Shown one piece after another: positions 36,629 through 41,714 of a DNA stretch of 64,000 bases (position 1 is its first letter; each line of letters opens with the position of its first letter). Location of the stretch: NCBI GenBank assembly GCA_016932995.1, contig JAFGBU010000010.1, positions 124,001-188,000 of the forward strand. The letters are read 5' to 3'. The notes below the pieces were generated by a model that worked only from the letters and a program-made list of their open reading frames with translations, made no database searches and was not told where the DNA came from. The translations under genes and the position numbers were made by a program. This stretch comes from Desulfovibrionaceae bacterium (lineage in GTDB: Bacteria > Desulfobacterota > Desulfovibrionia > Desulfovibrionales > Desulfovibrionaceae).

Positions 36629-38227
36629 ATGAACGCGCTGCTGATCAACCCCGAAAGCCCGGAGACCTTCTGGAAGCTGAGCACTCTGTGCGGCTTAAGC
36701 GGCAAAAAGGCCCTGCTGCCGCCGCTCGGGCTGATCACGGTGGCCGCGCTCCTGCCCCGGGACTGGAACCTCAGGCTCGTGGACCAGGAGGTCCAGGACC
36801 TGACCGAGGAGGACTGGGCCTTTTCGGACATCGCCCTTGTCTCCGGGATGATCATCCAGCGCGAGGCGATCCACGAGACCATCAGCCAGGCCGGACAAAG
36901 GGGCGTGCCCGTGGTCGTGGGCGGGCCGTACGCCAGCATCATGCCCGAAGAGGTCCTGGCCCGGGGCTGCGACTTCCTGGTCCAGGGCGAGGGAGAGCAC
37001 GCGGTGCCGGCCCTGGTCCGGGCCCTGGAAGCCGGCCGGACCAGCGGCGTGTTCAGGGGCCAGCGGCCGGGCATGTCCGAGTCGCCCCTGCCCAGGATCG
37101 ACCTTGTGCGCATGCAGGACTATGTGACCATGCCCCTGCAGATCACCCGCGGCTGCCCCTATGACTGCGAATTCTGCAATGTCTCGGCCCTTTACGGCCG
37201 AAAGCTCAGGACCAAGGACCTGGACCAGGTCCTGGCCGAGATGGAGGCCCTGTACCGGGCCGGCTGGAGGAGCGAGGTCTTCATCTGCGACGACAACTTC
37301 ATAGGCAACAGGAAAAAGGCCAAGGTCCTGTTGGCCGCGATGTACGACTGGCTGAAGAAAAAGGACATGCCTTTCAACTTCTGGACCCAGGCCTCCCTGG
37401 ACCTGGGCCAGGACCAGGAGCTCATGGACCTGATGACCAGGGCCAACTTCGCCCACGTGTTCATCGGCGTGGAGTCGAGCGAGCCCGAGGTGCTGGAGGC
37501 GGCCAACAAGCACCAGAACACCGCCCGCCCCCTGGCCGAGAGCATAAACACGATCACCAAGAACGGGCTCACGGTCATGGCCAGCTTCATCCTCGGCCTT
37601 GACCGGGAGAGCCCGGGCGCAGGGGAGAGGATAGTCTCCCTGGTCAATCGGACAAACGTCCCCCTGGTCATGGTCAACATCCTTCACGCCGCGCCAAGCA
37701 CCAGGCTCTGGGAGCGCCTGAAGAAGGAGGGCCGGCTCATCGAGGAAAAAACCCAGGGCGACTCGCACGTCGGGGGCATGAACCTGGTCCCCCAGCGTCC
37801 GGCCAAGGACATATACAACGAGCACATGCAGGCCTGGGACCGGCTGTACGACAGCGCCGCGTTTCTCAACCGCCTGCGCCGCTACTACCAAACCATGCGC
37901 CCGACGCGGCGGGCCCTGGGCCGGGAGGATCAAGGGCCTGTAAAAAGGACCCGGGCCCCCCTGGGCCAGACCCTGTCCAACCTCAGGTCCCTGATCCTGC
38001 TCTGCTGGGCGCTCGGCGTGCGGGACCGGAACAGGGCCCTGTTCTGGAAATGCCTTCTGGCCATCCGGCGGGACAACCCCTCAAGAATCATACGCTTTCT
38101 CGCGGACTGCGGCACCTGCTACTCGATCATGACCTACAAAAACACCCGGCTCCGCGGACTGCACAAAAGGCTCATGGCCGAGCAGGACGTTGACCGTCCG
38201 GCCGCGACCGGGGCCGAGCATGCCTGA
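36629..38227 (+). CDS. B12-binding radical SAM protein (with C-terminal DUF4070-like region)
   Basis: This 532-residue protein has an N-terminal cobalamin-binding-type Rossmann domain (MNALLINPESPETFW, LLPPLGLITVAALLP, VVVGGPYASIMPEEVL). The radical SAM core follows, with GCPYDCEFC (C176, C180, C183), CDDNFIGNR and FIGVESSEPEVLE. The C-terminal 200 residues resemble DUF4070 of hopanoid- and lipid-related family members. The usual DXHXXG B12 histidine motif is not seen, so cobalamin binding is uncertain. Its position after the oxidoreductase operon gives no substrate clue. It overlaps aroE by 8 bases. Confidence 0.85.
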   Translation: MNALLINPESPETFWKLSTLCGLSGKKALLPPLGLITVAALLPRDWNLRLVDQEVQDLTEEDWAFSDIALVSGMIIQREAIHETISQAGQRGVPVVVGGPYASIMPEEVLARGCDFLVQGEGEHAVPALVRALEAGRTSGVFRGQRPGMSESPLPRIDLVRMQDYVTMPLQITRGCPYDCEFCNVSALYGRKLRTKDLDQVLAEMEALYRAGWRSEVFICDDNFIGNRKKAKVLLAAMYDWLKKKDMPFNFWTQASLDLGQDQELMDLMTRANFAHVFIGVESSEPEVLEAANKHQNTARPLAESINTITKNGLTVMASFILGLDRESPGAGERIVSLVNRTNVPLVMVNILHAAPSTRLWERLKKEGRLIEEKTQGDSHVGGMNLVPQRPAKDIYNEHMQAWDRLYDSAAFLNRLRRYYQTMRPTRRALGREDQGPVKRTRAPLGQTLSNLRSLILLCWALGVRDRNRALFWKCLLAIRRDNPSRIIRFLADCGTCYSIMTYKNTRLRGLHKRLMAEQDVDRPAATGAEHA

Positions 38228-39029
38228 CTCCTACGGAATCATCGGCCACCCCCTGGGCCACAGCCTGAGCCCGGTCCTGCACAACTGGGGCTTCCGGGAA
38301 AACGGCCTGGACGCGGTCTACGAGGCCTGGCCCGTGCGGCCCTTTGAGCTGGCCGGGTTCATGGACCGGGTGCGCAGGACCCCGATCCTGGGCCTGTCCG
38401 TGACCATCCCCCACAAGCGGGCGGTGATGGCCCTTCTGGACGGCCTGGGCCCCAGGGCCGAGGCCGTGGGCGCGGTGAACACGATCTTCTGGCGCCGGGA
38501 CGAGCTGCTCGGCGAGAACACCGATGTCCTGGGCATTGCCGGGCCCCTGCGCGGCCTGGGGCTCAAGGTGGGGACGGCCCTGGTCCTGGGCGCCGGAGGC
38601 GCGGCCAGGGCCGCGGTGGCCGGGCTCAGGGAGCTTGGCGCAAAGCGCATCCTGGTCGCCAACCGGACCAGGTCAAGGGCCGAGGCCCTGGCCAGGGACC
38701 TCGGGGCCGAGGCCGTGGACTGGGAGCACAGGGCCGGGCTCGGCGCGGGGCTGATAATAAACGCCACGCCCCTGGGCCTGGCCGGGGACATGGAGAACCT
38801 CTCGCCCTGGCCCGATGACGCCCCCCTGGCCGGGGCCGTGGTCTTCGACCTGGTCTACAACCCCTTGAGGACAAGGCTCCTGGCCCGGGCCGAGGCCCAG
38901 GGCTGCATGACCGTGTCGGGCCTGGAAATGTTCGTGCACCAGGGCCTGGCCCAGTTCGAGATCTGGACCGGCAGGCGCCTGGACCCGGACGCGGCCAAGG
39001 CCCTGCTGCTCAGGGCCCTTGGGGGCTGA
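38220..39029 (+). CDS. aroE: AroE, shikimate dehydrogenase
   Basis: AroE reduces 3-dehydroshikimate to shikimate with NADPH in aromatic amino acid synthesis. The 269-residue protein has YGIIGHPLGHSLSPVLHNWGF, LGLSVTIPHKRAVM (catalytic lysine), GAVNTIFWR, GENTDVLG, the NADP motif VLGAGGAARAAVAGL and the NRTRSRAEAL phosphate site. The ATG at 38220 overlaps the radical SAM stop by 8 bases and is followed directly by the conserved N-terminus. The gene ends just before the multi-hairpin element. Confidence 0.94.
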   Translation: MPDSYGIIGHPLGHSLSPVLHNWGFRENGLDAVYEAWPVRPFELAGFMDRVRRTPILGLSVTIPHKRAVMALLDGLGPRAEAVGAVNTIFWRRDELLGENTDVLGIAGPLRGLGLKVGTALVLGAGGAARAAVAGLRELGAKRILVANRTRSRAEALARDLGAEAVDWEHRAGLGAGLIINATPLGLAGDMENLSPWPDDAPLAGAVVFDLVYNPLRTRLLARAEAQGCMTVSGLEMFVHQGLAQFEIWTGRRLDPDAAKALLLRALGG

Positions 39030-39030
39030 T

Positions 39031-39181
39031 CTTAGGAGGCTGTTGATAAACAACCTCCGCGCGCCAGGACGGCGCGCCCGGAATCATTGGAAAGCAATGA
39101 TTCCGGAGAGTTGGCGAAACCGCGCTTTCGCCAAATCGAGTTGAAAAAGTCCAGGACGGACTTTTTCAACATTCTGTTAGG
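39031..39181. repeat. five-hairpin element with imperfect terminal inverted repeats
   Basis: Five stem-loops stand in a row in the aroE/lytic transglycosylase convergent gap. (1) 39035-39058, GGAGG/CCTCC with an inner TGTT/AACA. (2) GCGCGCC/GGCGCGC, loop AGGAC (39059-39077). (3) CCGGAATCATTG/CAATGATTCCGG, 12 bp, loop GAAAG (39078-39106). (4) TTGGCGAAA/TTTCGCCAA (39111-39134). (5) GTTGAAAAAGTCC/GGACTTTTTCAAC, 13 bp, loop AGGAC (39140-39170). The ends, CTTAGGAGGCTGTTGATAAA at 39031-39050 and the reverse complement of 39162-39181, agree at 14 of 20 positions. It could be a MITE-like repeat or a structured RNA, and it probably also ends transcription from both sides. Confidence 0.8.
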
Positions 39182-39192
39182 GAATCTTCGGG

Positions 39193-40818
39193 CTAGCGCA
39201 CGTAGACCTTGAGGCTGTCCCCGGGCCGGATGACGGCCCGCTCGTTCAGGGCGTTCCACTCCATGAGCGCGTCGGCCGAGACCCCGAACCGCTTGGAAAT
39301 GGACCACAGGTTGTCGCCCTTGCGCACCTGGTAGCGGACCAGGGTCTCCTTGACCTTTTCCGCCTCCTTGCGGGCCAGGCGCGTGGCCTGTCCGCCGCCG
39401 TCCGGGACATAGACCTTCTGCCCGACCCTGAGCCTGGTGCGCCGGTTCATGCCGTTGGCCTTGAGCAGGGTGTCCAGGCCGACCCCGAACCTGCGGGAGA
39501 TGTCCCACATGGTGTCGCCCCGGCGGACCACGTAGTTGCCGCGCTTGAGCGCCAGGGAGCGCACCTTGCCGGCCTCGGCCCCGGCCTCGGCCCCGGCATC
39601 GGCGCTGAGCACGGGCCTGGAGGACTCCCTGCCCGGGACCATGACCCTCTGCCCCGGCCTGAGCAGGTTGGAGCGCGTGTTGTTGACCATCTTGAGCACG
39701 CTGACCGGCACCCCGTAGCGCCGCGATATCCGGTACCAGCTGTCCCCGCTGCGGACCGCATGGCAGATGTATCCGGCATACGGCCTGGAGCCCGGGCTCT
39801 TCAGGTAGGCCAGGACCAGGCCGACCTTTTCCCTGGGCACGTGGGCCACGCAGGTCGTGTCCGGCGGGCTGACCTGCCTGCGGAAGGCCGGGTTCAGCCT
39901 GTGGAAGTCGTCCCAGCGCATGTCCCCGGCCTTGGCCAGGGCCAGGAGGTCCGTGCCGCCCGGGACCTCGAGGTCCTCGAAGTCCTCGGCCGCGTCCCAG
40001 TTCACGGGCTCGAAGCCCAAGGCCTCCAGGTTCTGGAATATCTTGGAGATGGCTATGAACTTGGGCACGTAGTTGCGGGTCTCCTTCCTGAGCTTGGCCC
40101 GGCCCCTGAGGCGGTGGTTCTCGGCCGCGAGCTCGAAGAAGTCGTTGGCATTGGTCTTTTCCAGGGCCCGGCTGATCTTGCCCTCGCCCGCGTTGTAGGC
40201 GGCCAGGGCCAGATACCAGTCCCCGAACTGGGCATAGAGGTCCGAAAGGTATTTGGCCGCGGACTCGGTGGCCAGGCACGGGTCGCGGCGCTCGTCGATC
40301 CACCAGTCCGAACGCAGGCCGTACTTGCGGCCGGTGAAGGGCATGAACTGCCACATGCCCGCGGCCCCGGCCCAGGAACAGGCCCAGACATTGTAGCCGC
40401 TCTCGGCAAAGGGCAGAAGGACCAGGTCCTGGGGCAGGCCGTGGCGGGTGAAGGCCTTGCGCACATAGGGCAGGTAGGGCTCGGAGCGCTTCAGCCACTT
40501 GGCGAAGGTGTTGCGCGCCGTGTGGGTGAAAAAGGTGAAGTAGCGCCGGACCTCCTTGGTGTCGTGCAGGTCCAGGTCGAAGTCCAGTCCGAACCGGGAC
40601 TTGAGCACCTCCTGCTCGGTTCCGGACAGGGAGCTCCGGTCCTGGTTCGGATCAGTGGACAGCTCTCTTTCCAGGGGCACGGACCCGTCGCCCTCCTCGG
40701 ACAGGGTGGCGTTGGCCTCGAGCTGGGACAGGGAGGCCTTGGGGGCGCACGAAAACAAAAACAAGAGCCCGGCCAAAAGACAGAGGAGCCAGGTCGTCTT
40801 CCCACCGCCGCGTCTCAA
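39193..40818 (-). CDS. MltD-like membrane-bound lytic transglycosylase with three LysM domains
   Basis: The 541-residue lipoprotein has a signal ending LLFLFSC, an SLT domain with LLPFAESGYNVWACSWAGAAGMWQFMP (catalytic Glu in the ESGY segment) and LALAAYNAGEGKI. Three LysM domains follow at about 355-400, 430-475 and 495-540 (HAVRSGDSWYRISRRYGVP, YVVRRGDTMWDISRRFGV, YQVRKGDNLWSISKRFGV). It cleaves peptidoglycan with formation of 1,6-anhydromuramic ends. I chose TTG at 40818 because GGAGG lies 4 bases upstream and the signal peptide starts there; an upstream extension would add 48 unlikely residues. Confidence 0.9.
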   Translation of the reverse strand: MRRGGGKTTWLLCLLAGLLFLFSCAPKASLSQLEANATLSEEGDGSVPLERELSTDPNQDRSSLSGTEQEVLKSRFGLDFDLDLHDTKEVRRYFTFFTHTARNTFAKWLKRSEPYLPYVRKAFTRHGLPQDLVLLPFAESGYNVWACSWAGAAGMWQFMPFTGRKYGLRSDWWIDERRDPCLATESAAKYLSDLYAQFGDWYLALAAYNAGEGKISRALEKTNANDFFELAAENHRLRGRAKLRKETRNYVPKFIAISKIFQNLEALGFEPVNWDAAEDFEDLEVPGGTDLLALAKAGDMRWDDFHRLNPAFRRQVSPPDTTCVAHVPREKVGLVLAYLKSPGSRPYAGYICHAVRSGDSWYRISRRYGVPVSVLKMVNNTRSNLLRPGQRVMVPGRESSRPVLSADAGAEAGAEAGKVRSLALKRGNYVVRRGDTMWDISRRFGVGLDTLLKANGMNRRTRLRVGQKVYVPDGGGQATRLARKEAEKVKETLVRYQVRKGDNLWSISKRFGVSADALMEWNALNERAVIRPGDSLKVYVR

Positions 40819-40848
40819 GGGCCCTCCGCTGGAAGCGCTTTTGAAAAA

Positions 40849-40867
40849 TTTTAGAAAAAATCTAAAA
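40849..40867 (-). other. AT-rich hairpin with T-tail in the transglycosylase leader
   Basis: Read leftward, TTTTAGA pairs with TCTAAAA around TTTTT and is followed by TTTTTC. This resembles a weak intrinsic terminator, 30 bases before the transglycosylase start and in its orientation. It stands out in a GC-rich region. Confidence 0.45.
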
Positions 40868-40946
40868 CCCTTTCTTGTCCAGCCATTAGCTAACCCAAGT
40901 CCGGGTCGATTGCAAGACCGGCTAAGATGGAATAGACAGGCCGGAC

Positions 40947-41714
40947 ATGGAACGGCGATCAAGGGCGGACAAGGCCGCGGACATGTCCTGGGTGAGCGGC
41001 AGAAAGCCGGTCAGGGAGCTCTTGGGCTCGAGCCCGGCGAGCATCGACCTGGTCCTGGTGGCCAAGGGCCGCAGGGACACGGCCCTGGAGGACATCATCC
41101 GGGCCTGCCGCGGCCGGGGCGTGCGCTTCAGGCTCGCGGACAAGGCCGCCCTGGACAGGGCCTGCCAGGGCAACCACCAGGGCGTGGCCGCGCGCTGCGC
41201 TGCCCTGGAGTACGTGGATCTCAAGGAGCTCATCGACCTGACCCCTTCCGCGCCCCTGCCCCTGCTCGTGGCCCTGGACCAGGTCCAGGACCCGGGAAAC
41301 GTGGGCGTCCTGGCCCGGACCATCTACGCCCTGGGCGGGGCCGGGCTCATCGTCTGCGCCCATGGCGGCGCCTTTCTGGGCCCGGCCGCGGTCAGGTCCA
41401 GCGCCGGGGCCCTGACTCGGCTGCCCGTGGCCAGGGTGACCAACCTGGGCCGGGCGGTCACGGACTGCGCCCGGGCCGGGCTGTTCACCTACTGCGCCCA
41501 GGACCGGCCCGGCGCGGTCAATGTCCTGAAGGCCGGGCCGGCCATGCCCGCGCTGCTCGTGCTGGGCAACGAGGAAAAGGGCCTGCGCCCCGGGGTGGCC
41601 AAGCACTGCGCCGAAAGCCTGTTCATCCCCCTGGCCAGGGACTTCGACTCCCTGAACGTGGCCCAGGCCGGGGCGATCATGGTCGCCGAGTTCTCCAGGC
41701 GCACAGCCTCCTGA
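40947..41714 (+). CDS. rlmB: RlmB/TrmH-family 23S rRNA 2'-O-methyltransferase
   Basis: The 255-residue SpoU protein has the N-terminal substrate-binding domain (SGRKPVRELLGSSP, GNHQGVAARCAAL). It is followed by motifs 1-3 of the SPOUT knot: LVALDQVQDPGNVGVLARTIYALGGAG, LLVLGNEEKGLRPGV and FIPLARDFDSLNVAQAGAIMVAEFSR. These match RlmB, which methylates Gm2251 of 23S rRNA; tRNA targets in the same family cannot be excluded. It is divergent from the lytic transglycosylase and convergent with fliQ. Confidence 0.88.
   Translation: MERRSRADKAADMSWVSGRKPVRELLGSSPASIDLVLVAKGRRDTALEDIIRACRGRGVRFRLADKAALDRACQGNHQGVAARCAALEYVDLKELIDLTPSAPLPLLVALDQVQDPGNVGVLARTIYALGGAGLIVCAHGGAFLGPAAVRSSAGALTRLPVARVTNLGRAVTDCARAGLFTYCAQDRPGAVNVLKAGPAMPALLVLGNEEKGLRPGVAKHCAESLFIPLARDFDSLNVAQAGAIMVAEFSRRTAS

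Follow-up and report, generated by a model that had tools for sequence, protein, structure and literature searches.

A five-hairpin element between aroE and a lytic transglycosylase gene, very probably an IS5-type MITE with loops that fit CsrA

The window, a 64,000-nucleotide stretch of Desulfovibrionaceae DNA, contains the aroE gene for shikimate dehydrogenase (positions 38190–39029, plus strand) and, convergent with it, a LysM/lytic transglycosylase gene (39193–40962, minus strand). Between the two genes lies a 141-bp element at positions 39036–39176, which is described here on its plus strand, the strand that reads AGGAC in the loops of its second and fifth hairpins. The element is flanked by the two copies of a 4-bp, unstranded target-site duplication, TTAG, at 39032–39035 (left) and 39177–39180 (right). 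TTAG is a YTAR site, and aroE ends 2 bp short of the left copy. The left terminal inverted repeat (39036–39050, plus strand) reads GAGGCTGTTGATAAA and is diverged. The right terminal inverted repeat (39158–39176, minus strand) reads inward as CAGAATGTTGAAAAAGTCC, with 17 of 19 bases the same as in the IS5-family end CAGGCTGTTGAAAAAGTCC.

Five hairpins on the plus strand, henceforth referred to as H1 to H5, follow one another along the element. H1 (39035–39058) contains one mismatch and represents the palindromic left end. H2 (39059–39077) consists of a 7-bp stem and an AGGAC loop; between lineages its stem covaries and a loop of the form A(N)GGA(N) is retained. H3 (39078–39106) has a 12-bp stem with compensatory changes at four pairs among the copies in the same genome, where its loop is found in both orientations. 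H4 (39108–39137) has 9 bp plus a further 2 bp after a gap, and its core, GAAACCGCGCTTTC, has close relatives in Gammaproteobacteria, Magnetococcales and the genome G026. H5 (39140–39170) combines a 13-bp stem with the second AGGAC loop, holds most of the right terminal repeat, and carries an A-tract/T-tract stem of the bidirectional-terminator type. The folding energy of the hairpin stretch was −85.2 kcal/mol, compared with −51.6 ± 4.6 kcal/mol for 200 dinucleotide shuffles of the same stretch (z = −7.35; 0/200). The initial annotation had described these five hairpins, the AGGAC loop common to two different stems (H2 and H5), and 20-base ends agreeing at 14 of 20 positions as inverted repeats, and all of these details were reproduced. 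Its 151-base unit was correct for the hairpins but 4–5 bases too wide at its limits, as the borders of the element at 39036 and 39176 are given by the TTAG on either side.

A whole-genome search identified the 141-bp element at 27–29 loci in the 2.48-Mb genome, the range allowing for halves at contig ends that may pair up as single insertions. Full copies are 88–97% identical. Recurrence of the 13-bp stem or the complete unit, which the initial annotation had anticipated, was thereby established at no fewer than 26 further places besides the junction copy. Of the 29 loci, 19 hold complete or almost complete copies and 3 hold short forms; the other 7 are half copies at contig ends, where the assembly breaks within the repeat. 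Nine contig ends (C3, C7, C8, C16, C38, C39, C44, C47 and C48) lie inside copies, so the repeat limits the assembly. The three short forms (63 bp) are missing precisely the 87-bp segment that runs between the two CCAGGACGG direct repeats, a loss expected from slippage. They are located at L034 2246–2309 and at L035 2267–2327 and 3699–3761. The two forms in L035, which are 1.4 kb apart, oppositely oriented and have one variant base in common, are probably related to each other, and given this inverted pair the short form may itself be mobile.

The terminal inverted repeats are imperfect and have the core AGnnTGTTGAnAAA in common. With one mismatch allowed, the end motif YTARNAGNNTGTTGANNAA gave 50 matches in the genome, all of them inside these copies, and a reversed control of the motif gave 0 matches in the genome. 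Both ends of the element are flanked by YTAR. Target-site duplications, which the initial annotation had suggested looking for, were found as 4-bp YTAR repeats: in a pooled, pattern-based set with YTAR at both ends, 39 of 46 pairs were identical 4-mers against 15.1 expected, and the maximum in 10,000 shuffles was 29. When the duplications of the host's own copies were scored by eye, identical 4-mers were present in 12 of the 20 copies with both ends readable (CTAG in 8, TTAG in 2, TTAA in 2); the duplications were mismatched in the other 8, which counts against reading the element as a MITE. Twelve relatives retain the convergent aroE–transglycosylase pair, the two genes lying −20 to 192 bp apart, and none of the 12 has the element at this junction; these relatives belong to other genera and so do not provide exact within-species empty sites.

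The MITE-like character proposed in the initial annotation is borne out by these results. The element is short, lacks a transposase gene and occurs in many copies (141 bp, 27–29 loci); it has imperfect terminal inverted repeats together with a duplicated target, is missing from the junction in relatives, and has the same ends as an IS5-family element. On these sequence comparisons, the five-hairpin unit is very probably an IS5-type MITE, presumably mobilised in trans. H1 and H5, the outer hairpins, represent transposon ends that have become palindromic; H2, H3 and H4 between them make up a conserved core.

The IS5-family element was identified in a plasmid search using the palindromised end, which returned a Microvirga plasmid insertion sequence with the ends CAGGCTGTTGAAAAAGTCC and CAGGCTGTTGAAGAAGTC. 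This insertion sequence encodes a 363-amino-acid IS5-family transposase with DUF772 and DDE_Tnp_1 domains, which scored 281 bits with NF033581 (cut-off 140). Exact CTAG or TTAG duplications were observed in seven of seven plasmid insertions of this insertion sequence or its relatives. Ends of the same kind and YTAR duplications are found in the five-hairpin element, and for this reason it is assigned to the IS5-type MITEs. The Microvirga and Sinorhizobium plasmid insertion sequences (L205, L221–L226), which have CAGGCTGTTGAAAAAGTCC-type ends and YTAR duplications, differ from the element in being 1.5 kb long, in coding for the IS5-family transposase and a second protein, and in having no five-hairpin core.

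No match to DDE_Tnp_1 (PF01609) or DUF772 (PF05598), the two domains searched for, was detected in the host genome (G000). An autonomous partner in the same genome, which is usual for a MITE but not strictly required, was therefore not detected by these two domains, and may have been lost or be missing from the assembly. We infer the putative enzyme that moved the element in this host from its counterparts in other bacteria. Since neither transposase domain was found, the element in the host genome is probably now immobile. A survey of 297 genomes of the class returned only an IS5 fragment, in one relative, with CAGGCCCTTGAAAAAC nearby. Two groups of candidate mobilisers were rejected: the DUF772 (IS1182-type) transposases of relatives, for which 11 loci were examined without finding matching paired ends, and the DDE_Tnp_1 loci of element-bearing genomes, whose ends do not match.

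Genes flanking the host's own copies were called with a simple codon model. The 3' ends of these neighbouring genes are directed toward the element on 33 sides and away from it on 15, and a neighbour's stop codon lies inside the duplication in 16 of the 29 copies. In copies elsewhere, the left-hand gene runs exactly up to the element (distance 0) in 11 of 31 cases. Orientation relative to the genes is random, with 15 sense and 18 antisense cases among the own copies and 31 and 32 elsewhere. Of 22 CTAG sites in the window, 12 are stop codons, 6 are intergenic and 4 are intragenic. The preference for stop codons and gene 3' ends arises because CTAG is rare elsewhere in this GC-rich genome, and is largely a property of the YTAR target. 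With CTAG scarce and over half of its sites being stop codons, insertion at YTAR lands on or beside the 3' end of a gene, where the stop codon is duplicated instead of destroyed. The same placement of insertions by the YTAR target accounts for an element between convergent genes. By drawing a transposon toward stop codons, a YTAR target in a GC-rich genome would offer a simple route to harmless intergenic insertion.

The hairpins, chiefly H5, could alternatively serve as bidirectional terminators or insulators between convergent genes, with harmlessness or use explaining their persistence. This reading is unlikely. Within the region, H5 alone resembles a terminator: it has a GC stem between an A-tract and a T-tract and passes a terminator scan for a GC-rich stem followed by a T-run; 0.5 such sites are nevertheless expected by chance, and just 4 pairs, 3 of them G-C, extend from the T-tract to the loop. 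An ordinary hairpin terminator occupies the same junction in several relatives, but several have gaps of 8–26 bp and no terminator. The excess of insertions toward gene 3' ends would suit terminators but is already explained by the YTAR target, and five hairpins are not needed for termination.

The distribution of the IS5-type MITE among near relatives is patchy. The exact H5 stem was present in 3 of 348 genomes of the host's class, and a looser search, covering 58 relatives besides the host genome, identified related right ends or cores in 4. In a collection of 84,980 species, at least 105 stretches matched. The matches listed include Sedimenticola and other Gammaproteobacteria, Magnetococcales, several deltaproteobacterial MAGs and Desulfarculus, as well as Myxococcota, a Nitrospirae MAG and a Planctomycete. 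Some simple palindromes from Firmicutes and other groups also appear among the matches listed; they are not necessarily related to the element. Folding of each listed element placed hairpins in equivalent positions, the plan being retained incompletely in the Nitrospirae copy (L104). A search of viral contigs gave no H5 hairpin and five contigs with the end motif alone, and phage records gave no useful match to the element.

In the genome G026 (L043, L052, L055, L058, L060 and L062), another type of MITE combines the five-hairpin plan and its AGGAC loops with the ends TACCAAGTTGCG, TGA on both sides and a different H5 stem; H2 and the loops are unchanged. Several copies begin at the TGA stop codon of a gene, and the type looks like a TNA-target (IS1031-like) relative. 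The distribution as a whole points to a MITE family that is conserved in architecture, not in sequence, across distant bacteria, its stems swapped around constant loops.

Covariation across copies, which the initial annotation had proposed to model, exceeded the shuffled level in both sets analysed. Among 29 Sedimenticola-type copies, two-sided changes were observed in 18 of 52 pairs, amounting to 48 cells against 11.7 in shuffles and at most 7 in a sliding-partner control. Among 17 own copies, 5 pairs and 9 cells showed such changes against 2.5 after shuffling. Counts for H5 in alignment A2 are uninformative, its arms being fixed by the search pattern; the arms of H1–H4 were not so fixed. Between lineages, H2 displays 14 different stems in 20 representatives and as many as 5 pair types at one position, counts that are not independent trials, as these lineage or subtype representatives, with hairpins listed by hand, are related by descent to some degree. 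One-sided changes gave G-U:A-C ratios of 17:12 and 9:11, so that decay of the stems carries no RNA-strand signature. Inverted loops were found for H5 in the own copies L025 and L026 and for H3, which occurs as GGAAGCC and GGCTTCC. Hairpin-templated correction would explain both the two-sided changes without a strand signature and the inverted loops, and the stems may stay palindromic mainly at the DNA level by this route.

The loops of H2 and H5 have the form A(N)GGA(N) and are closed mostly by C-G. GGA is present in the H2 loop of 18 of the 20 representatives and, among the matches listed, nearly always in the H5 loop, whereas a background set of 97 hairpins with perfect 8-bp stems, taken from outside the elements, has 3 such loops on either strand. 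In 29 copies of H2, the A, G, G and A positions are 93–97% conserved and the two N positions 69–79%; the loops of H3 and H4 likewise show variable and conserved positions. The SELEX consensus for E. coli CsrA is RUACARGGAUGU, with GGA in a hexaloop, and the repeats of CsrB read CAGGA(U/A/C)G (PMC7652899). In Sedimenticola, the common form of H2, GCGGTACAGGGATGTACCGC, includes GUACAGGGAUGU, which matches this consensus exactly. Several A(N)GGA(N) hairpin loops characterize CsrA-sequestering sRNAs, and two of the five loops of the element are of this type. The csrA gene was found in 10 of 11 host genomes, with none detected in the Planctomycete G064. A folded RNA with a protein partner, as put forward in the initial annotation, is thereby a testable lead, with CsrA as the candidate that fits the loops.

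Under this hypothesis, transcripts of master copies would bind CsrA through H2 and H5, whose conserved loops are of the A(N)GGA(N) form. The core might then be a mobile CsrA-binding module that titrates or recruits CsrA and either aids persistence of the element or regulates mRNAs that have the element at their 3' ends. Such a role would complement the assignment to MITEs rather than replace it, and is a tentative lead of low probability. The retention of GGA over 14 different H2 stems, the exact SELEX match, the greater conservation of A, G, G and A than of the N positions, the loops kept in G026 despite different ends and a different H5 stem, and the presence of csrA in the host genomes all argue for it. 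Against it stand the lack of orientation bias, decay without an RNA-strand signature, the inverted H5 loop of two own copies and the similar pattern of positions in the H3 and H4 loops. In addition, the 7–13 bp stems are longer than the short stems favoured by SELEX (PMC7652899), csrA is expected anyway in most host lineages and was not detected in G064, and no promoter-like site was found. No Rfam family matched at the gathering threshold, and relaxed matches in the window were all far below it; a match of RsmV to the H2 hairpin of L166 (7.9 bits, E 3.3) was at chance level. Searches of open-licence papers gave no relevant one linking CsrA with MITEs or quoting the end or stem sequences of the element.

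A broader and still more doubtful proposal is a multi-phylum mobile class that carries a five-hairpin RNA module, with CsrA sites in H2 and H5, between changing transposon ends; insertions would add CsrA-binding tails to mRNAs, and the copies would form a dispersed sponge. If the loops do bind CsrA, MITEs would be a vehicle for spreading regulation at the post-transcriptional level within genomes, and bacteria other than Gammaproteobacteria could possess an equivalent of CsrB-type RNAs in dispersed form. The element resembles the CsrA-sequestering sRNAs of the CsrB/RsmY/RsmZ type in its serial hairpins and CAGGA(U/A/C)G-type loops, but it is a mobile repeat scattered over the genome, whereas they are encoded by sRNA genes at single loci, and it matched no Rfam family at the gathering threshold.

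The mobile five-hairpin unit is of a known kind, the IS5-type MITE, and is unusual in its widely conserved five-hairpin plan. With the IS5-derived MITEs (reviewed in PMC10969869) it shares a short, non-autonomous, multicopy and intergenic nature, terminal inverted repeats, a 4-bp YTAR duplication and strongly folded transcripts. It differs from them in having five separate hairpins, with order and loops conserved across distant bacterial groups, and an asymmetric interior of fixed polarity in which stems are replaced and loops kept. The Chunjie MITE of Geobacter uraniireducens (PMC10969869) is likewise deltaproteobacterial and has dozens of copies and size variants, but measures 178–235 bp; it was compared by description only.

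REP and REPIN classes are marked by an associated RAYT (Y1 transposase) and by hairpins with GTAG/GGAG feet. The initial annotation had also considered a REPIN-like element, which a RAYT would move as single-stranded hairpins. The extragenic palindromes and dozens of intergenic copies are indeed features shared with REP, BIME and REPIN sequences; the duplicated YTAR flanks and the DDE-type inverted ends matching an IS5 element belong to a DDE (IS5) transposon, and make this reading very improbable. A chance cluster of palindromes around a terminator is practically negligible as an explanation, refuted by the further genome copies and opposed by the folding z score, the covariation and the occurrence in unrelated bacteria.

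Several minor observations were made on insertion sequences and size variants. On a Halioglobus pacificus plasmid (L209 2501–4357), ends with the same sequence, CTAG-CAGCCTGTTGAAAAAGTC, surround a transposase gene of the IS256 family, not IS5, possibly as one element nested in another. The genome G008 (L066, L077, L082, L084 and L085) contains ten equal-scoring copies of a DUF772 transposase gene, nine with a 493-amino-acid open frame; this insertion sequence was apparently recently active and does not have the ends of the five-hairpin element. In Sedimenticola, minimal forms of about 44 bp at L094 2845 and L186 7852 consist of a two-end palindrome with an A(N)GGA(N) loop and TTAG flanks. Extra hairpins within the plan extend the element to about 180–193 bp in L150 (Desulfarculus), L096 (Planctomycetaceae), and L108 and L127 (Delta E14).
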